DNA of 64,000 nt from Paludibacteraceae bacterium (lineage in GTDB: Bacteria > Bacteroidota > Bacteroidia > Bacteroidales > Paludibacteraceae). Location: assembly GCA_017464025.1 (NCBI GenBank), contig JAFUEI010000017.1:1-64000 (forward strand), read 5' to 3'. Position 1 is the first letter of the stretch; every line of letters begins with the position of its first letter. The notes beneath the pieces were generated by a model. That model was not told where the DNA came from. It searched no databases and was given only the letters and a program-made list of their open reading frames with translations. The translations under genes were made by a program, and so were the position numbers. Of the stretch, positions 54,000 to 64,000 are shown piece by piece.

Positions 54000-54533
54000 T
54001 CATTCTTCAACCTCATCCTCGAAGCTGTTGTCTTTAGCAGAAATACCTTGTCGGATGCGGTTTGCTGTTGCTGCCTCCTTGCTCTCTGCAATGCGCTTGG
54101 CGGTTTCGTCATCAATAGGCTTTTCCGCAGGCGCAGCGGAATAGGCATAGGATAACATCTTGATATAGAGGTCACATTTTTCTTTCGGCTTGAGTTTTTC
54201 CCACTCGCGCCAAAAAGAATCAATCCTTTCTTGGATTTTTTTGCGAGTTAAATTGCGAAACTCGCTTTGTGTAGGAATGGATTTTTTCGGCATGGTTTTA
54301 CTATTTGTTGCTTTCGTTTCTTCCGGACTTGAGTCATCCTTGGCGATTTTGTTTTCCAAGAAGGCTATTGGCAGTTCGTCAATGATGGCATCACGGGCAG
54401 AGTATGCAGATTCCTTGTCCGGAAAAGAATTGCTATGCCCATATACTTCCGGCTCGACCACATCACCCGGCTTTGCCTTGTCGCGGCGCACAACCTTGCC
54501 TCGCGTAGTTATTACCCAAATATGTCCTGTCAT
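54000..54533 (-). CDS. phage protein, small-terminase-like
   Basis: 177 aa. The N-terminal part begins MTGHIWVITTRGKVVRRDK and has no known family. The C-terminal half, with RKKIQERIDSFWREWEKL and PKEKCDLYIKMLSYAYSAAP, resembles the helical small terminase subunits of Bacteroidetes phages (the block 'LKPKEKxxLYxKLLxY'). It is the last gene downstream of TerL on the same strand and overlaps the preceding gene by ATGA. The call rests on position and one motif. Confidence 0.45.
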   Translation of the reverse strand: MTGHIWVITTRGKVVRRDKAKPGDVVEPEVYGHSNSFPDKESAYSARDAIIDELPIAFLENKIAKDDSSPEETKATNSKTMPKKSIPTQSEFRNLTRKKIQERIDSFWREWEKLKPKEKCDLYIKMLSYAYSAAPAEKPIDDETAKRIAESKEAATANRIRQGISAKDNSFEDEVEE

Positions 54534-54982
54534 TTTACCGCCTCCAATTTGCCAAACAAACGATTCATACGAATACGCTCCATATACTTAATCCACGCGA
54601 CACGCTTCTGATTACGCTCGGCCACGGTAAGTCCATTGCCGTTATTGCGGTCCAGCGGAGTGTAGTAATAGCAATCTCGCATGATGTCAAGATGTGAAAT
54701 GTTCTTTGGCAGCATACGGATTTTGAAAGTGCGGAACTTGCCACCAACATACTTGCGCACACGGCGCGGTTTTTTCATCTGCTTGATGTCGTCGTTGCAC
54801 AACCAAATGAGTTTGCCCTGCGCATTTTCGATGACATAGAAGCGTTTGTTGCGTGCGCATTGCAGCGCATCTGCCATAAAGATAGCAAGACTAAGGCGAA
54901 GCCCGTCCATCTTCAGACCGCAGAACACACGGAACAGTAACCACTGTTCACGGATTTTGATTTTGATTTGTTCAAGTTTCAT
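54530..54982 (-). CDS. phage hypothetical protein
   Basis: 150 aa, basic (many K, R), no membrane segment. It contains CARNKRFYVIENAQGKLIWL and a C-terminal HLDIMRDCYYYTPLDRN. It lies 14 nt after TerL and overlaps the following gene by ATGA, so it belongs to the packaging operon. No family recognised. Confidence 0.7.
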   Translation of the reverse strand: MKLEQIKIKIREQWLLFRVFCGLKMDGLRLSLAIFMADALQCARNKRFYVIENAQGKLIWLCNDDIKQMKKPRRVRKYVGGKFRTFKIRMLPKNISHLDIMRDCYYYTPLDRNNGNGLTVAERNQKRVAWIKYMERIRMNRLFGKLEAVK

Positions 54983-54996
54983 ACTATTATATAATT

Positions 54997-57009
54997 TTAC
55001 ATTGTACTTTCCCCAACAATTCTGGTTATAATTTTGTCTTTTTGCGAGCGAGGTTCTATCTTGCGCGGGCGGTTGAGGTAGTCATAGCACACCCAGATAC
55101 CAATAGCGCGTGTGATATGCCGGTCGTCGTGCTGTCCATCCACCGCACCGATAGAGCCATTTCCCTTAATCTCCATATAGTCGTGCTCATTCACGGCTTC
55201 ATTGCAAGTCTCTATATACATATTCTCCCGCAGTGCTTTCTTCTGATGGTCGCAGACCATACGCTTGGTGGACTTGTTGGTATGGAAACCCCACTTGGGT
55301 TCAAAGCCCATTGCTATCTTTTCTGCGTCAACACGGCAATAAAGGTTGTCATAATGGTATGCTATCTCATCAAGCACATACTCGAAGTGGTCGCCTTCTG
55401 TCTGTTCAGTCTCCAATGTGTTGGACTCTATAACCAACAAAGCATTGCTGTATGCTGTAGCTATCTGTACAGCTTTCCATGCAAGCAGGTAATGGTCTAT
55501 ATGTCCGCACCACTCCGCAACCACTATCGGCACCCCGCCATGTGTCATGTCATAGCGGTCTATAACACAGATAACCGAACGGTCCGAATGGTCGGACGAG
55601 CCGCCAATATCCACAATTACAACATAACGGTCGTTGCATTGTCTTGCGGGGTCTTTATCCGGCATAAACCACACCTTGAGTTGTCCGCCACGCTCCGGCT
55701 TGAATATGATATTCTTTACTGCCTCCTCTCCGAAGTTTTTCTCTCCGTAAATCTCACCCTCAAATGACGGATTGAAACAGCCTTTGCGCAATCTTTCCAC
55801 ATCATCCTGCGGATAGAGGCGATGTCCTGTGGACTGGAATGCCTCGGTAGCGGTTGTGGGCTGGTCTGATTTCCAACGCCATTTGTCCTTCTGTCCCTTT
55901 GATGCCATTCTATACCAAGCGATTCCCTCCAATGTGGCCCCTTGTTCAAACATCCATTTCTCATAATCCGTCATAGACTCTATGAACTTACGGTAGTCAT
56001 CAATGGGCAGGACATCATCTTCCTTCTCAAACCAAGGCGAAAAGAATGCTTCACAGTCTGACTCTCCGTTTATGGCACGCAACCATTCAGAGTGGAAGAA
56101 GTTGCCGACACCACGAGCCGTGGACTCGTATATGATAAAGGTATTTGGTGCGTATGCTACACCTGACTGTATCGTCTGTATGAGTTGTTCAGGCTTGATG
56201 TTGGTGGTGGATTTGAATAGTCCGACCTCTGAGAAGTGTACCATTGACACATCGTCACCCGCAAGGTTGTCCGGCTTTTCTGACGAGCCGATTGAGATGC
56301 GACATCCAATCTCACGCACAACGAGGGTCTTGTTGGACTTTTCAAACGGCGAGAGTCGCAACTTGGTATCATCAGGCAAATTGAAAAGCCACGCGGGCAG
56401 ACGGCTTATCATTAGCGAATACATGCCTCGCACAAGGCGGGAAGTATTCTCTACATGGGCAATAACCTGTGAGCGTGCCATATTAAGCACAAAGAGTTGC
56501 TTCCACGCCATGTATAGCTGAACAAGTGTAGAGAATCCTACTTGACGGCGTTTGCAGATAATGATACGCACAGGCTTGCCCTCTTTGTCGTACTTGTATA
56601 TAAGACGGAGCAGCCTGCGCTGCCCTCTATTAAGGCGGAAGAGTATCGGCTTGACATTGTTCGGGTCTTTATCCTTGATGCAAAAAAACGAGGCGGCGCA
56701 GAACTCGAAGTCGTGCTTGCATCGTGCACGGATAATCTCGCGGCGTACTATCTCAAGATTGACTTGAGTATAGCGCAACCCGCACCGATGAAGATATTCA
56801 CGGATTGAGAAGTTGCATATGCGCAAGTCATTAAATATCTTTTCCTCGTAGCAATCAACAGGCACATGGTAGTCATACCAACCAAGTTCGAGAGCAGAGA
56901 ACAAAGCACGCTCACACGAATCGCACCCATCGCCGGTGATGGGGTCGTATGTCAGGGCACGCTCCTCGTTGCGTTGCTGATTGATTAGTATGTATTCTTC
57001 CACATTCAT
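54997..57009 (-). CDS. phage terminase large subunit
   Basis: 670 aa. The packaging ATPase shows the TerL-type Walker A CKRRQVGFST (152-161), Walker B SMVHFSEVGLF (about 254-264) and the coupling motif IIYESTA (292-298). The RNase-H-like nuclease follows, with acidic residues in VVIVDIGGSSDHSD, LLVIESNTLETEQ and GQHDDRHITRA. It cuts and pumps phage DNA into the procapsid. It is read away from the head genes and follows the rhomboid gene with an ATGA overlap. Confidence 0.92.
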   Translation of the reverse strand: MNVEEYILINQQRNEERALTYDPITGDGCDSCERALFSALELGWYDYHVPVDCYEEKIFNDLRICNFSIREYLHRCGLRYTQVNLEIVRREIIRARCKHDFEFCAASFFCIKDKDPNNVKPILFRLNRGQRRLLRLIYKYDKEGKPVRIIICKRRQVGFSTLVQLYMAWKQLFVLNMARSQVIAHVENTSRLVRGMYSLMISRLPAWLFNLPDDTKLRLSPFEKSNKTLVVREIGCRISIGSSEKPDNLAGDDVSMVHFSEVGLFKSTTNIKPEQLIQTIQSGVAYAPNTFIIYESTARGVGNFFHSEWLRAINGESDCEAFFSPWFEKEDDVLPIDDYRKFIESMTDYEKWMFEQGATLEGIAWYRMASKGQKDKWRWKSDQPTTATEAFQSTGHRLYPQDDVERLRKGCFNPSFEGEIYGEKNFGEEAVKNIIFKPERGGQLKVWFMPDKDPARQCNDRYVVIVDIGGSSDHSDRSVICVIDRYDMTHGGVPIVVAEWCGHIDHYLLAWKAVQIATAYSNALLVIESNTLETEQTEGDHFEYVLDEIAYHYDNLYCRVDAEKIAMGFEPKWGFHTNKSTKRMVCDHQKKALRENMYIETCNEAVNEHDYMEIKGNGSIGAVDGQHDDRHITRAIGIWVCYDYLNRPRKIEPRSQKDKIITRIVGESTM

Positions 57010-57539
57010 TCTTCTTTCACTCCGAACAGCCCCGTCTTGTTGGCATATTGATGTGCGAACTCACGCAGACACATATACACAATACCTTCTGTAAAAGCAA
57101 AGAGGTGCAACGGCACATTGGACTTGCCAAAGATTATTTGCACCAGTACAGCGAGAGCCACCCATATATAGTTCAATGCCTGTTTCCTTGTGGGGTTGAG
57201 AATTAGCAGCACGCCAAGAAGAAAAAAAACGCATCCAGACATCCCGACCGTAGGGATGTCAGTTGCACAGACTGCTCCGGCAATTACAGCAGCCCAATAC
57301 ACACTTGCTGCAAGCCCGATTGCGTTTGTGTTATAATGTGTGGAATAGATACGCCGTATAGGAATCCATAACATCAACAAAGAAACAGAGTTAATAATCA
57401 GATGCAGCCAAGATATATGCAAAAGCATATAGCCAAATGCTTCATACAGATGTGTCGTTGAGACACCGTATTGCGAGACTAATCCCTGCGGTGTCAGAGC
57501 AAACAGCAGAATTGATATGAGTATAATAAAGTAAATCAT
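57006..57539 (-). CDS. rhomboid intramembrane serine protease encoded by phage
   Basis: 177 aa with about six hydrophobic segments. All rhomboid signatures are present and correctly spaced. HLIIN (46-50) in TM2 gives the H-x-x-x-N pair. GMSG (99-102) in TM4 holds the catalytic Ser101. HLFAFTEG (145-152) in TM6 carries the catalytic His145. Rhomboids cut membrane helices near small, helix-breaking residues. The gene overlaps TerL by ATGA downstream and the preceding ORF by ATGA upstream, so it is firmly part of the packaging operon. The likely substrate is unknown; the capsid protein's N-terminal helix is one candidate. Confidence 0.82.
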   Translation of the reverse strand: MIYFIILISILLFALTPQGLVSQYGVSTTHLYEAFGYMLLHISWLHLIINSVSLLMLWIPIRRIYSTHYNTNAIGLAASVYWAAVIAGAVCATDIPTVGMSGCVFFLLGVLLILNPTRKQALNYIWVALAVLVQIIFGKSNVPLHLFAFTEGIVYMCLREFAHQYANKTGLFGVKEE

Positions 57540-57787
57540 TTCTTTGATAGTGTTCGTTTGTAGGCCATAGCACGATAGTAAAATGCCGCGGCAGATGATG
57601 GTGTGATATAGAAGGATGGTGCAGGCGATTCAAGAATGTCCTGCATAAGTGAGTATTTGAACTCAATACCGTTATTAGCGGAGAGTCTGTCTTGATAGCG
57701 GGAAAAGATGTCAAGATACATCTGTCGTGTAGCCTTGGTGGCAGCATTGAGCGTGCCGGTGCACAACCACTCGTTATACTTCTCCAT
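57536..57787 (-). CDS. phage hypothetical protein, 5' end uncertain
   Basis: 83 aa from the only ATG, beginning MEKYNEWLCTGTLN. The same frame stays open upstream to about 57965 and reads like protein (RIYNYHLRQLHFIQAVDKLW, then LAATTTAPQFYITPKQA). The phrase FYITP recurs in the downstream part (APSFYITPSSAAAFY), so the gene probably extends there and its start is hidden by a frame change. It overlaps the rhomboid gene by ATGA. Family unknown. Confidence 0.6.
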   Translation of the reverse strand: MEKYNEWLCTGTLNAATKATRQMYLDIFSRYQDRLSANNGIEFKYSLMQDILESPAPSFYITPSSAAAFYYRAMAYKRTLSKK

Positions 57788-58137
57788 CGCCTGCTTGGGG
57801 GTGATGTAGAATTGGGGAGCGGTAGTGGTTGCTGCCAGCCTACATAGTTTTTTCAGATTGGGATGAGAAGAAGATGTTTTCTTCCAAAGTTTATCGACAG
57901 CCTGTATGAAATGAAGCTGTCTCAGATGATAGTTGTAGATACGTTCGGACCTTACAGAGCGGCATGTTTAATGGTTGCACCTTAAAATTACTACAGAATA
58001 GGCATTTGTGCAAATCAAAATTACTTCTGCGGTGCAAATAATTACATTTGCCGCAATTTTTAATCACATTTGCCGCAACCTCTCTTCTTATATCGCAGTA
58101 ATTTTACCGCCGAAATCTTTTTAACGCATTTACGATT
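57788..58137. other. divergent intergenic between packaging and head genes
   Basis: The part nearest 57788 holds the unassigned coding-like frame described for the 57787 gene. The remainder (57966-58137) is AT-rich and must contain both divergent phage promoters; no consensus TAnnTTTG element is evident. Confidence 0.5.
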
Positions 58138-59022
58138 ATGACAGAAGAAGAGAAAAAAGCACAAGAGGAGGCTGCTGCACGAGAGGCAGAAGCCGCAGCT
58201 GCTGCCAATGCAGGAGGTGATGGCAATGCGGAAAATGGTGAAGACCCCGAAAGTGCCGTGCAAGCCAAAGACGGTAATGGTGCGCCTGTAACCGAGCCGA
58301 TGCCCAAAGATGTATTCTTCGAGCGTATCAGAACCAATGTTCCGGACGGAAAATTTGAAGATGATGAGCAAGAATACTACCGCCACGCCATGGAGATTTT
58401 AGACAAGGCGGAGGATGGCAGCAACAAGTACAAAGGACTGACCGAAAAACTGACACGTCGCTATCAGGAAGACCCGGAAGAAGTCGCCATACTGATGGAC
58501 TATATCGAGGGAATGCCGCTTATGGCAGCCATCGTCAAGCATAAAGGCGAAGAGGCTCTTACTATGAAAGAGGGTGACGAAGGCTGGGAGGACTACCAGC
58601 AAGAAGTCGGCAGACGCAAGGAGGCTCGTGAGACCTATATGAAACTTATGGATGAAGTAGAGAACAATTCTACGACTACTGCCGAAGAGTTTAACAAATG
58701 GGCCGACGAACTGAAACTTGACGATGAGCAGAGGAAAGCGGTATGGGACCTGATGCAGAGCGACCTTGACAATATGACGAGAGGCAAAATTTCTCGCGAT
58801 GTATTTGACCGCTACAGCAAGGCGTTGAATTATGAGCGCGATGTTGAGGGTGCGCATGAGCAGGGCAAGGCCGAGGGCAAGAACGAAGCCATCGAAGCCA
58901 AACGGAAGCAGATGAAAGGCAGCGGACTGCCCAACGGAGGCGGAGGCAACAGCGAACATGAAGAGGCAGAAGAGACAACTGACCCGACAGCACAGTGGCT
59001 TGCCGCTATGATACACAGATAA
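58138..59022 (+). CDS. phage scaffold-like protein
   Basis: 294 aa, very acidic and helical, no Cys-rich or membrane segment. A low-complexity N-terminus rich in A, E and G (about 1-60) precedes long amphipathic helices (YYRHAMEILDKAEDGSNKY, TAEEFNKWADELKLDDEQ) and a Lys/Glu tail with HEQGKAEGKNEAIEAKRK. Its place directly before the capsid gene and its composition fit an internal scaffold. No sequence family is recognised. Confidence 0.6.
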   Translation: MTEEEKKAQEEAAAREAEAAAAANAGGDGNAENGEDPESAVQAKDGNGAPVTEPMPKDVFFERIRTNVPDGKFEDDEQEYYRHAMEILDKAEDGSNKYKGLTEKLTRRYQEDPEEVAILMDYIEGMPLMAAIVKHKGEEALTMKEGDEGWEDYQQEVGRRKEARETYMKLMDEVENNSTTTAEEFNKWADELKLDDEQRKAVWDLMQSDLDNMTRGKISRDVFDRYSKALNYERDVEGAHEQGKAEGKNEAIEAKRKQMKGSGLPNGGGGNSEHEEAEETTDPTAQWLAAMIHR

Positions 59023-59056: not shown

Positions 59057-60478
59057 ATGAAAAAGTTTCTGAAAAACTTTAGCGTGGTGGGCTTTCTGAT
59101 GCTCATCTTGTGTGTGGTACTCGGCGTCGGAGATATGTCGGGTGCAGTAATGAGTGCCGATGGTGCTCCTGCGGCTGTCGAGAAGCCCGGTGCAGGCGAC
59201 ACTCGGGAAACCGTGACCACTATACCCCACGGTGATGGTGGCGGTTTAGAGACCTTGGATATTCGTGCCTTGCGTGCGGATATGATTGATGACCCCATTG
59301 ACCAGAACCTTGTAAAGATTCGTCCGGGGTTGAACCGAATGGATACGATACTGCGTTACTTCAAGCCCGTACCGACCAACAACTTCGAGTTTGATTTCTA
59401 CGGTATTGCAACGAGGGAATTGAGCAACAACCTGTCCGCAGCGGCTACCATTCATAGTGATGGTGATGTGCATGAGGTATATGGTACTGCTCCCCTTGCC
59501 GGCGGTATTAGCGATATTGGTGACGGCGACTGCTTCTATGTACCAAGTGTTGCAGGCGGCGGGAAAGACACCTCTCCTCTGATGCTTTATGTATATGAGA
59601 AAGACCTTGACAACAAGATAATCAAGTTCACCATTGCCGAGGACCAGATGGCGGAGACCACTTCCGGAGGTGTTACCACATATTCCATTCCTGCCATTGC
59701 AAAAGATACCGTTGTGTATCAGCTCTCGCGTGCGGTTGACGAGTTGGCAGTAAAGACCGATGCCGCTTCTGTTCTGCCGAAGCCTACTCACGGCTACTGT
59801 CAGTTCCATATGGCGCAGATTGCCCAGTCCACTTTCGAGAAGATGATGGACAAGAAGTTCAAATGGGACTTCTCCGAGGTTGAAGAGCAGGTTCTGTATG
59901 AGTATCGCCGCAAACTTGAGGGTGCTATCCTGTTCAACAAGGGTGCGAAGATTTGGAATCGCAAACTCAACAAGTATGTATATACTATGGGTGGAATCAC
60001 CCGTCAGATTTCCAAGTCGTATGAACTTGACTTGAGCGACATGACCAAGGGCAACGAGGCATTGGTAAGTCTTGAAAAGTATGTGTTTACCGGGAATAGC
60101 GGTTCGGAGACGCGTATCTTGCTTGGTGGTAGCGAGTTCGTTGAGGCCATCTCGAAGATAAAGGCCGTTCAGAAGCAGCAGGAAGCAGGCAATACCGAGG
60201 TGGTATTCGGTATGACTTGGAACAAAATTATCAGCAACTTCGGCACTCTGTTGCTTGCACACGCCGAGATATTCGACGAGTACGGTTGGAGCGACAAGGG
60301 CTTGGTACTCGACCCGATATTCCTGCGCAAGTGGCAGTTGCAGTCGTTCAAGGCACAGCCATACGATGGTGAGAAGCTGATGATTATGAAGGGCGAGATG
60401 AAGGTGTTCAGCGAAGTGTTCGGCGTTGCGGTTTACAACCCCGATGTGCACTGCAAGGTAACTCTGAAACTTACCTGA
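59057..60478 (+). CDS. phage major capsid protein with N-terminal membrane segment
   Basis: 473 aa. The bulk fits HK97-fold capsid proteins of SU10/N4-gp56 type: PGLNRMDTILRYFKPVPTNN, ELAVKTDAASVLPKPTHG, LLGGSEFVEAISKIKAVQ and GMTWNKIISNFGTLLLAHAEIF. Unusually, residues 1-30 form a basic start plus a hydrophobic helix (VVGFLMLILCVVLGVGDMSGAV), like a signal anchor. An internal start at MSADG (residue 33) would remove it, but the ATG at 59057 is spaced normally (34 nt) from the scaffold gene. A strong terminator follows. Confidence 0.75.
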   Translation: MKKFLKNFSVVGFLMLILCVVLGVGDMSGAVMSADGAPAAVEKPGAGDTRETVTTIPHGDGGGLETLDIRALRADMIDDPIDQNLVKIRPGLNRMDTILRYFKPVPTNNFEFDFYGIATRELSNNLSAAATIHSDGDVHEVYGTAPLAGGISDIGDGDCFYVPSVAGGGKDTSPLMLYVYEKDLDNKIIKFTIAEDQMAETTSGGVTTYSIPAIAKDTVVYQLSRAVDELAVKTDAASVLPKPTHGYCQFHMAQIAQSTFEKMMDKKFKWDFSEVEEQVLYEYRRKLEGAILFNKGAKIWNRKLNKYVYTMGGITRQISKSYELDLSDMTKGNEALVSLEKYVFTGNSGSETRILLGGSEFVEAISKIKAVQKQQEAGNTEVVFGMTWNKIISNFGTLLLAHAEIFDEYGWSDKGLVLDPIFLRKWQLQSFKAQPYDGEKLMIMKGEMKVFSEVFGVAVYNPDVHCKVTLKLT

Positions 60479-60568: not shown

Positions 60569-61099
60569 ATGAAAAAGATTTATAAAACGCTTTCAAGCAG
60601 TACAGTAATACAGGTGAACACAAGCAAAGGTGTCCGTCCTGTATATTTCAAAAACGGCTTTATCGGTCTTGGCACTCTCCGTGGCGGAAGGTTCGATACG
60701 GAGGATGAGGAGTTACAGAAAGGTATTGAGTCCCACCCCCGCTTCAAAAGCGGATTCAGCGACCAGATATGGACCGATGACATTACCTTGCCGGCAGAGG
60801 AGAAAGCCGCAGCGGAGGTCGTTGTAGAAACAGAACAGCAGAAAACTGATGCACAGGAAGAGGTCGTTGCAGAAAATGAGGTTCAGGTCACAGAGGATTT
60901 GCCCGAAGAGGAGGCTGCTCCAGAGGCCGGAGAAACGGAAGTGTATAATCCTTCCGACTTCCATGATGTAACGACCGTGGCAGAGGCACGCAAGATACTG
61001 AAAGAGGTGTACGGCAAGAGCCACAACGAGGTAAGAAGTAACGCCCAAGTGCTCTCTGTTATCAATGAACTCGGGCTTAATTTCCCTAATTTGAAATAA
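60569..61099 (+). CDS. phage hypothetical structural protein
   Basis: 176 aa. The N-terminal half is beta-like (IQVNTSKGVRPVYFKNGFIG). The middle is an acidic low-complexity linker of E, A, V and Q (about 75-130). The C-terminal part is a compact helical domain (VAEARKILKEVYGKSHNEVRS). It sits between capsid and connector genes, so it may be a head decoration or head-joining protein. No family recognised. Confidence 0.6.
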   Translation: MKKIYKTLSSSTVIQVNTSKGVRPVYFKNGFIGLGTLRGGRFDTEDEELQKGIESHPRFKSGFSDQIWTDDITLPAEEKAAAEVVVETEQQKTDAQEEVVAENEVQVTEDLPEEEAAPEAGETEVYNPSDFHDVTTVAEARKILKEVYGKSHNEVRSNAQVLSVINELGLNFPNLK

Positions 61100-61101
61100 C
61101 A

Positions 61102-61947
61102 ATGCTCGGAAAAGAGATAAAAAATCTGGTAATTGTGAAGATGGAGGAATACACTCCGTATGGTCCATCTTCGGGTTCTACCTTGTTGGTTGGCGGAGAC
61201 CGACTTGACGAGGTTAAGCCAGTGTACAGCTATGTAGCCCAACACCTCGCAGAAGCAGCAAATGAGATGCTGATGATAGTTCCGATTCATAAACTGCTAT
61301 ACAAGGAGTCGCGTATGGCTGCTGTTGCCGATACTGACGACAATCAGATTGGCTACATTCCATTACCTATTGATTATCTCCGTCTGCATACTCTAAAGAT
61401 GAACGGTTGGACTCGCCCCGTGCACAGGGCAGTACACGAGGGCGAGCCATCGTATGACTTACAGTTTACCCGTTGGACGAGAGGAACAAGACAAAAGCCT
61501 GTAGTAGTTCTTGCAGGTAAGGGTTCAACTCTTGATACGGCACAGATAAACGCAGAAATAATATCTGCCGATGAGATTGAATCAGCATTAAATGACTGGG
61601 AGACCCGCTGCCGGAACAAAGGCGAGTGGGTCAACAAGTATTGGCAAACATATCCAAACGGCGAAGTTGTAATGGGTTACTATGACATGGAGAATGACGA
61701 AGCACGAAGCAAGACCTATTCCTCTCCGCATCTACAGTATTTCAGTGTAGCGGCAAGTAATACGCACATTGTTGATACATTCACATATATTCCTGTCTTT
61801 AGCGAAAGCCGCGATTATGACCGTCGGGTTGCCGAGGTAATAGCACTCAACTGCGCACGCAAAGTATATGAGGTGTATGGGCAGACCGAGCAGATAGGAA
61901 TTATTACGAGCGAAATAAATTCTGTTCTTGAAAATATGCGACAATGA
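61102..61947 (+). CDS. phage head-tail connector-like protein
   Basis: 281 aa. A mixed alpha/beta protein with EVKPVYSYVAQHLAEAANEM, GYIPLPIDYLRLHTLKMNGW and a C-terminal helix (VIALNCARKVYEVYGQTEQ). The IPLPxDYLRLxxLKMxGW block resembles connector or ring proteins of podoviruses seen next to portal genes. It overlaps the portal gene by ATGA. Confidence 0.5.
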   Translation: MLGKEIKNLVIVKMEEYTPYGPSSGSTLLVGGDRLDEVKPVYSYVAQHLAEAANEMLMIVPIHKLLYKESRMAAVADTDDNQIGYIPLPIDYLRLHTLKMNGWTRPVHRAVHEGEPSYDLQFTRWTRGTRQKPVVVLAGKGSTLDTAQINAEIISADEIESALNDWETRCRNKGEWVNKYWQTYPNGEVVMGYYDMENDEARSKTYSSPHLQYFSVAASNTHIVDTFTYIPVFSESRDYDRRVAEVIALNCARKVYEVYGQTEQIGIITSEINSVLENMRQ

Positions 61948-64000
61948 TTGACAAGAATGACATAAGATATAAATATCTCAAGCGTCAGGACAAACAGGAG
62001 ACCTCCGTCCTATTGGAGCAGGAGCAGGACATTGAGGCCCGTGGCGAGAATCTGAAACGCCTATGGCGTTATCGCGGCTATTGGGATGCTTTGGCTGAAT
62101 ACCGCCGTCGCAGGCAGCGCGTAAAGCGTTATGAGCGTGGTAAGCAGTGGGATGATATTATTGAAGTGAACGGCAAGCGGATGAGTGAAGCCGCATACAT
62201 TATGGAACAGGGCAAAGTGCCACTGAAGAATAATGTAATACTTCAAACGCAGAACTCTGTCGTCGGCGTATTCCGTGGTAACTATACTTATCCTGAATGC
62301 ATAGCCCGTGCAAGGGACAACCAACAGGTAGGTGAGATGATGACTGCCATGACACAATATGTCGAGCAGATTAACGACATCAAGGAAGTTGATGCTGCGG
62401 ACTTCTTGGAGGGGTTGCGCAGCGGTCTTGCCGTTCAGTATGTTGACTTTCAGTGGAACGACGAAACACTGACCAAAGAGGTTACGATAGAGAGTTGTCC
62501 TGTTACTCACATTTTCCTTAACGGCGGTATTCGCGACATGCGCGGCAAAGACATTACCTGCATCGGAATGCTAATGGATATGCCTCTTCACAAAGTGGTG
62601 CAACGCTTTGCAAAGACCGAAGAAGATGCAAGAAAAATACGCGAGATATACCGCCATGTGGATAAAAACAGTCTCGTGGGATTATACCATACATTCATCA
62701 ACAGCCGCACCAATTCACTTGATTTCCTTACAACAGACAGGACAGACCTTTGCCGTGTGATACAAGCGTGGGAATTGGAAGAGGGAGAGTGCTGGCTTGT
62801 TCACGACCGATATGAGCAAACCTTGAACATCTATCCAAAGAAAGACAAGGCTCATATTCTGAATATGATTCGAGAGAGGGACAAGGATATCGCAGACAAT
62901 GACCTTGACCCCGAGCAGACAAAGATTACAATGGAACTTCACAATGATGTGTATTGGTATGTGAGGTATCTGAGTCCGCGTGGTGATGTGTTGTATGAGT
63001 CAAGGAGTCCGTTTGCTCATCGTAGTCATCCATTTGCAGTGTATATGAGCCGTCTTGTTGACGGGGAGATATATAGTTTCATTGATGCGATTATAGACCA
63101 ACAGCGGTATATCAACCGTCTTATCACGCTTAATGACTTTATCATGAGTGCGAGTGCCAAAGGCGTACTTGTGTTTCCTGAAAATGCCATTCCCGCAGGA
63201 ATGACCAAAGAGGATATTCTTGAACAATGGGTAAGCTACAGGGGTGTCATCTTTGCCAACCTGAAACCCGGTGTTCCCGTGCCGCAGCAGATAAGCACCA
63301 ATGCCACAAACATCGGAACAAACGAAATGCTTGCATTGCAACTGCAACTGGTGCGTGACATCAGTGGCGTACATGGTGCAATGCTTGGCAGGGAGGCAAA
63401 GAGCGGTACTGCGGCGAGTCTGTATGCACAAGAAGCAAGCAATGCACAGACCAACCTGCTCGATACTATTGAGAGTTTTGCCGCTTTCCGCAAACGCAGA
63501 GACTACAAGGTTGCCAAAACCACCGCTCAATGCTATGACTATATAGACTATGTTCCTGTTGTCGGCAAGGAGTATTCGGAGAAAGCGAAAGAATGGAATG
63601 CTGAATTGGCATCGAAGTTCGACTATTATATAGTAATCACGCAAACCAACAATACCGAACTGTATCAAGCACAACTCAACCAACTGCTTATGGCAGCATT
63701 GCAGCAACGGCTGATAGACTTCAAGACGGCATTGGAGGCAGGACGATTCCCGTTCGGAGACCAGGTACTTAGATTGCTTGAGCGTAAGGAGAAGGAGATG
63801 CAGCAACTGCAAGCGCAACAGCAGGCTATGATGTTACAGGGACAGGCTGCAGGTGTCAATGCGGCAGGGGCCGGTGCAAGCGAAGGACAGATAGCGCAGA
63901 TGGGAGCGGATGCCGCAATGCAAGCCTTACAAATGGGTAATGAGGGTGATGCTTTGACTGCACAGGCGGGGCAGGCCAATCAGCGAGCGATGCAGATGAT
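61944..64000 (+). CDS. phage portal protein, 3' end outside window
   Basis: 685 residues visible. It starts MIDKNDIRYKYLKRQD and contains portal-like features: LKNNVILQTQNSVVGVFRGN, IINGGIRD-type FLNGGIRDMRGKD, SPFAHRSHPFAVYMSRLVDG (wing/stem), IIDQQRYINRLITLNDFIM and GVHGAMLGREAKSGTAASLYA. A Gln/Ala/Gly-rich C-terminal tail (LQAQQQAMMLQGQAAG) begins near 615. The portal forms the DNA entry vertex and docks TerL. It follows the connector gene with an ATGA overlap. Confidence 0.75.
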   Translation, partial: MIDKNDIRYKYLKRQDKQETSVLLEQEQDIEARGENLKRLWRYRGYWDALAEYRRRRQRVKRYERGKQWDDIIEVNGKRMSEAAYIMEQGKVPLKNNVILQTQNSVVGVFRGNYTYPECIARARDNQQVGEMMTAMTQYVEQINDIKEVDAADFLEGLRSGLAVQYVDFQWNDETLTKEVTIESCPVTHIFLNGGIRDMRGKDITCIGMLMDMPLHKVVQRFAKTEEDARKIREIYRHVDKNSLVGLYHTFINSRTNSLDFLTTDRTDLCRVIQAWELEEGECWLVHDRYEQTLNIYPKKDKAHILNMIRERDKDIADNDLDPEQTKITMELHNDVYWYVRYLSPRGDVLYESRSPFAHRSHPFAVYMSRLVDGEIYSFIDAIIDQQRYINRLITLNDFIMSASAKGVLVFPENAIPAGMTKEDILEQWVSYRGVIFANLKPGVPVPQQISTNATNIGTNEMLALQLQLVRDISGVHGAMLGREAKSGTAASLYAQEASNAQTNLLDTIESFAAFRKRRDYKVAKTTAQCYDYIDYVPVVGKEYSEKAKEWNAELASKFDYYIVITQTNNTELYQAQLNQLLMAALQQRLIDFKTALEAGRFPFGDQVLRLLERKEKEMQQLQAQQQAMMLQGQAAGVNAAGAGASEGQIAQMGADAAMQALQMGNEGDALTAQAGQANQRAMQM

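Follow-up and report, generated by a model that had tools for sequence, protein, structure and literature searches.

A conserved rhomboid gene in the packaging cassette of a tailed-phage clade and its possible link to a signal-anchor-like capsid protein

Introduction

What does an intramembrane protease do between the packaging genes of a phage? The question is raised by a 64,000-nucleotide stretch of Paludibacteraceae DNA (positions 1 to 64,000 of contig JAFUEI010000017.1, assembly GCA_017464025.1; hereafter the window), in which a predicted rhomboid-family intramembrane serine protease of 177 amino acids is encoded at 57006..57539 on the minus strand, next to the gene for the terminase large subunit (TerL). 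An initial annotation of the window had held that rhomboids are not a standard phage function and that this one should serve head assembly, membrane-linked packaging or host takeover. This view is partly supported; phage rhomboids as such were already known from Stenotrophomonas phages DLP3 and DLP5 and from the GenBank entry for Bacteroides phage BF1-TP2. As for function, the complete catalytic residues and the conserved membership in the packaging and head cassette make a role tied to head assembly the best reading of the sequence data, with membrane-linked packaging and host takeover as possible roles. The strongest clue to what that role might be is the signal-anchor-like start of the phage’s own major capsid protein (MCP), and we propose, with confidence evenly balanced between yes and no, that the rhomboid cleaves this predicted N-terminal membrane anchor.

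Results

The rhomboid open reading frame (ORF) starts with ATG and was recovered on the minus strand at exactly the coordinates first assigned to it, and Rhomboid is the sole Pfam match of its product (E 1.5e-12; 48.4 bits, cut-off 22.6). The catalytic set described initially, H46/N50, S101 within a GMSG motif and H145, is present and invariant in a 15-sequence alignment of the window protein with 14 relatives of 48-65% identity from a protein search. Across 50 aligned phage rhomboids, in which identity to the window protein falls as low as 17%, the HxxxN motif, the GxS serine and the catalytic histidine occur in every sequence, and none of the 50 departs at H41, H46, N50, G99, S101, G109 or H145; the divergent BF1-TP2 copy still scores 24.9 bits against Pfam Rhomboid (cut-off 22.6). 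The structure predicted by AlphaFold2 from a 28-row alignment (pLDDT 92.8; an earlier 15-row alignment gave 53.3 and was discarded) shows the six-helix rhomboid fold, so that the lack of this fold, named in the initial annotation as a refuting outcome, is not seen. A search of solved structures by sequence gave no match to the window rhomboid, and PHROGs gave a weak one, to a family of unknown function (E 0.078). With a median dN/dS of 0.15 over 39 pairs, many of them between near relatives, the Pfam score and the invariant catalytic residues, a chance match or a pseudogene can be rejected, and the product is, as judged from its sequence, a rhomboid-family protein with all catalytic residues intact.

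On both sides the gene is tied to its neighbors by minus-strand ATGA overlaps, at 57009-57006 with TerL (670 amino acids, 54997..57009, minus strand; PHROG E 1.8e-19) and at 57539-57536 with a conserved small protein that we call gene X, and both overlaps, as well as the identity of the TerL neighbor, bear out what had been read from the letters. To place this arrangement in context, we assembled rhomboid loci from a protein search, a TerL search, and MCP-guided and rhomboid-guided scans, which together yielded 49 loci on 45 contigs, four of them represented twice, and 36 different rhomboid sequences (loci are given below by our L numbers). The usual order is X - rhomboid - TerL, adjoining scaffold and capsid genes; a TerL match is present in 47 of the 49 loci, and in 46 it sits immediately downstream of the rhomboid with the same orientation. 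Departures from this order are few: the called TerL frame extends back across the rhomboid in L003 and L075, probably a start-codon artefact, 286-418 bases separate the two genes in L078-L080, and L046, the most rearranged member, retains X - rhomboid with TerL on the opposite strand. In L046 the rhomboid is followed by an ORF of 253 amino acids, for which two membrane segments are predicted. The rhomboid-guided viral scan, from which 30 of 57 pattern matches were kept, recovered a rhomboid in all 30, together with a TerL match in 28 and an MCP match in 27 (two partial); two of the three loci lacking an MCP match are truncated by the contig start and the third, L117, is not. L117 carries rhomboid and TerL, yet no MCP match within ~6 kb though its contig goes on.

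The suggestion that rhomboid genes be sought beside TerL in related phages proved productive: three isolated Bacteroides phages came up in the TerL search (BF1-TP2, BKO1-TP3 and BS-TP4), all of them showing the order X - rhomboid - TerL next to scaffold and MCP. Absence of the gene from all related phages, the other refuting outcome named initially, is thus not seen either. These same three were the only phage records in which the MCP was found. The BF1-TP2 record contains an integrase and a repressor. In GenBank the BF1-TP2 gene product is entered as rhomboid family intramembrane serine protease, and the BS-TP4 record calls its own a rhomboid domain-containing protein. Some annotations appear wrong: the BKO1-TP3 rhomboid is named a glycoside hydrolase, and TerL is named tail spike protein in L006, L007 and L008 (PQ571263, PQ571269 and PQ571277). 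A tblastn search of 50,697 phage records with the rhomboid returned one weak match (E 0.5), and a viral-contig scan with a single rhomboid sequence found none; relatives did emerge from the alignment-based scans.

In a midpoint-rooted TerL tree of 63 rows, all 36 rhomboid rows fall within one 41-row branch (support 100/100), in which five rhomboid-less rows are nested, long branches among them, and three changes suffice to explain the presence and absence of the gene over the whole tree. A profile of the phage form, run against 393 genomes of the same order, gives 223 bits for the window and 132 bits for the L046 phage, versus at most 61.5 bits for other Bacteroidales rhomboids among the matches listed. 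Because position, catalytic residues and clustering in the TerL tree are all kept, we conclude that the rhomboid belongs to the core genes of one phage clade, encoded and conserved within the packaging cassette. A simple moron is rejected on the grounds that position and catalytic residues are retained throughout the clade. The same evidence bears on the idea that the enzyme targets a host membrane protein, for example in a superinfection block or late envelope remodelling, and uses the late operon only for timing. Host single-pass proteins offer many candidate substrates, and the DLP5 rhomboid is listed as a moron; morons usually move between phages, however, whereas the place between X and TerL is kept here through deep divergence, and the host genome already encodes a rhomboid of its own. 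We therefore consider a host target unlikely.

The candidate substrate lies in the adjoining head genes. The window MCP (473 amino acids, 59057..60478, plus strand; SU10_MCP family, Pfam 74.4 bits, cut-off 24.1) opens with a basic stretch, followed by a hydrophobic segment and then a Gly/Ser-rich motif, together forming an N-terminal element of ~36 residues (59057..59164, plus strand) that is the putative rhomboid substrate. Of 111 MCP homologs, 105 have a hydrophobic N-terminus, which we define as a mean hydropathy of at least 1.8 over 15 residues within the first 55; most of the remaining six appear truncated or mis-started. In the distinct rhomboid loci with a full MCP the start is hydrophobic in 33 of 33 cases (lowest value 1.77) and resembles a signal anchor, being basic, then hydrophobic and usually Gly/Ser-rich next. 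After dereplication, at a threshold of 1.7, all 31 rhomboid-plus MCPs have a hydrophobic start, as do 53 of the 58 rhomboid-less ones. The signal-peptide-like start of SU10-type MCPs thus extends beyond the rhomboid clade (L039-L072, L082-L114); it is missing in L057, L067, L070, L071 and L072, and in L069, L093 and L096 the hydrophobic segment sits 50-78 residues in.

Rhomboid-plus and rhomboid-less elements differ in other respects. A Gly-rich motif, chosen post hoc after inspection of the MCP sequences, directly follows the hydrophobic core in 26 of 30 rhomboid-plus versus 12 of 50 rhomboid-less MCPs. At matched MCP-core identity, moreover, rhomboid loci show the higher element conservation in eight of eight bins; at 70-80% core identity, for instance, element identity is 56.6% (7 pairs) as opposed to 36.2% in rhomboid-less MCPs (70 pairs), the pairs being non-independent and drawn from 21 rhomboid-plus and 29 rhomboid-less dereplicated proteins. 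This final comparison was end-gap-free and dereplicated, since the choice of sequence window could shift registers, and relative to the first version the difference became smaller in most bins and kept its sign in all eight. Only loci whose MCP has both the regular-expression core motif and a strong hydrophobic window were kept, 36 rhomboid-plus and 38 rhomboid-less, and L003, L004, L006, L076 and L078-L080 stand outside the dereplicated element list, as near-duplicates or because they fail this filter.

We also asked which other proteins near the cassette could present a membrane segment. In the 33 rhomboid loci, 55 of 286 ORFs of at least 140 amino acids within 6 kb of the MCP start strongly hydrophobic; 50 of these 55 are MCP or rhomboid, and no other recurrent hydrophobic start was found among ORFs of that size near the cassette. 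In BF1-TP2, a predicted membrane segment occurs in 10 of 72 coding sequences (CDS) examined, and within the head cluster only in MCP and rhomboid. If the rhomboid instead cut another membrane protein of the phage (a spanin, a holin or an ejection protein, for example) and so timed lysis or prepared the virion, it would find eight further candidates in this phage; none of the eight lies in the head cluster beside the rhomboid, however, and together with the lack of a further recurrent hydrophobic start near the cassette this makes such a target improbable.

Pfam recognized no known prohead protease family in the head cluster of the window, nor, in BF1-TP2, in ten proteins around the head genes, in 42 proteins without clear function (two of them among the ten) or in the two largest proteins; the BF1-TP2 check covered 72 of 83 CDS (11 short ones excluded), 53 proteins individually and 19 through the best 25 of 43 families. 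Among the proteins of this phage is gp68 (L147:226-11127), a polyvalent protein of 3633 amino acids in which inorganic pyrophosphatase, ADP-ribosyltransferase and nuclease-like domains are joined. Removal of the MCP element could instead fall to a signal peptidase of the host or to a phage protease not recognised as such, with the rhomboid doing something else in the cassette. The element does occur in rhomboid-less relatives, where by eye many copies end in Ala-x-Ala-like stretches, and capsid signal peptides of Porphyromonas gingivalis phages are ascribed to prohead proteases in the report describing them (PMC10367356). The tighter element sequence in rhomboid loci, as though read by a specific partner, speaks against this account, which we judge very unlikely. 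A by-eye contrast of the signal-peptidase (-3,-1) motif did not separate rhomboid-plus from rhomboid-less MCPs.

The remaining genes of the window form two divergent groups, with scaffold, MCP, two ORFs and portal on the plus strand running away from X - rhomboid - TerL on the minus strand. Gene X (57536..57925, minus strand, putative start codon), upstream of the rhomboid, is listed as an ORF of 83 amino acids at 57536-57787; its frame resembles relatives to ~57925, homology with L004 and L005 extends further upstream than 57787, and L004 shares with the window a CTG at 57925 that may be the start codon of X. It contains two similar F-Y-I-(T/S)-P motifs, and a small-terminase-like function is suggested by its location ahead of TerL. 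The probable scaffold protein (294 amino acids, 58138..59022, plus strand) is so called from its position and acidic composition; it matches a PHROG of unknown function (E 1.4e-13), and a Pfam search with it gave no match. Two conserved head-cluster ORFs of unknown function follow the MCP on the plus strand, of 176 amino acids at 60569..61099 (PHROG E 1.5e-8) and 281 amino acids at 61102..61947 (PHROG E 9.3e-10), before the portal protein (61944..63998, plus strand; Pfam P22_portal, 117.4 bits), which continues past the window edge. Downstream of TerL lies an ORF of 150 amino acids and unknown function (54530..54982, minus strand; weak PHROG match, E 0.00041). The source contig stops at 64,968, so that the phage is seen only up to there; an MCP identical to that of the window is listed on contigs of up to 131,677 bases, and public data may hold a longer copy of the region.

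Discussion

We propose that the MCP would dock at, or insert into, the host inner membrane via its N-terminal element, and that the rhomboid, likely expressed from TerL’s operon, would cut at or near the Gly/Ser-rich motif after the hydrophobic segment. Such a cut would free membrane-docked capsid precursors for head maturation and packaging, and the rhomboid would replace the soluble prohead protease in function. More tentatively, and with somewhat less than even confidence, the clade as a whole may build its heads on the inner membrane from a self-anchored HK97-type MCP, with the rhomboid as a membrane-embedded prohead protease.

Several observations weigh against this proposal. Judged by charge distribution, the MCP element is predicted to be N-in in 30 of 30 rhomboid-plus MCPs, and rhomboids are described as preferring substrates with a periplasmic N-terminus (PMC7232013). 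A literal N-in topology would also place the capsid domain outside the cytoplasm, and the element must therefore merely dock or insert unusually; a type II protein, Star, has been discussed as a possible rhomboid substrate if its motif can loop back (PMC2941825). The hydrophobic start of 53 of 58 rhomboid-less MCPs means, furthermore, that the anchor does not require a phage rhomboid, and rhomboid-less relatives may use other enzymes on it. In partial Mantel tests over 24 of 36 loci, the rhomboid-element correlation, controlling for MCP core and TerL, is r 0.17 (p 0.07) and the TerL-element correlation r 0.28 (p 0.016), so that the rhomboid is not singled out; rhomboid-plus phages form one clade, and ancestry alone could explain their common features. 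Finally, the BF1-TP2 record labels gp7 a metallo-endopeptidase where Pfam sees DUF4494, and these phages may encode a head protease of some unrecognised family.

Even with the MCP as substrate, the cleavage could be a matter of quality control, removing unassembled, membrane-stuck MCP rather than maturing the productive shell. Shigella rhomboids are described as clearing orphan membrane proteins (PMC7232013); an auxiliary clean-up function would be more easily lost, yet three changes suffice on the 63-row TerL tree, and we hold out little expectation for this alternative.

The proposed capsid-anchor cleavage has partial parallels in known systems. Prohead maturation proteases of tailed phages are soluble enzymes of families other than rhomboid. 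Like them, the phage rhomboid is encoded in the head and packaging region and is proposed to trim the MCP N-terminus; unlike them, it is membrane-embedded and, with Rhomboid as its only Pfam match, falls outside the known prohead protease families. Compared with GlpG-type bacterial rhomboids, the 177-aa window protein lacks a cytoplasmic N-terminal domain, is phage-encoded and is fixed between packaging genes. Among NCBIfam families, rhombosortase (TIGR03902) scores best with the three phage rhomboids examined, but they reach 21.6, 17.3 and 17.0 bits where the cut-off is 84, and membership is rejected. In Vibrio, rhombosortase trims a tail made of a Gly/Ser motif, a hydrophobic segment and a basic end (PMC6219818); the phage system resembles this GlyGly-CTERM pairing in that a rhomboid accompanies a protein with those three parts, and differs in that the element is N-terminal, in reversed order and on a capsid protein. 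Of the phage rhomboids known before, the 175-aa DLP3 protein (gp93) lies amid hypothetical and sugar-modification genes and the DLP5 protein is termed a moron, neither belonging to a packaging cassette. T4 heads assemble at the inner membrane, linked to it at the portal by a membrane scaffolding protein (PMC3185693), while here each MCP would bear its own anchor. A counterpart of the MCP element itself is the signal-peptide-like capsid protein start noted in 2023 in P. gingivalis Nixviridae phages (PMC10367356); the word rhomboid is absent from the main text of that paper.

Capsid signal peptides and phage rhomboids have thus each been reported earlier, separately, and a literature search by title and abstract, with preprints and most subscription journals outside its scope, gave nothing, among the papers listed, that links rhomboids with tailed-phage capsid proteins. 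The new lead is the pairing of a clade-wide phage rhomboid with a signal-anchor-like MCP. Substrates are known for few bacterial rhomboids; in these phages, enzyme and candidate substrate are encoded ~1.5 kb apart and have relatives in isolated Bacteroides phages, and the question is therefore directly testable. If true, the proposal would mean that tailed-phage heads can arise at membranes in a second way besides that of T4, and would supply the first viral intramembrane head protease and a capsid-release mechanism not known from tailed phages. Even if the rhomboid has another substrate, two things would still call for explanation: a rhomboid among the core genes of phages, and the widespread signal-anchor-like start of the MCP.
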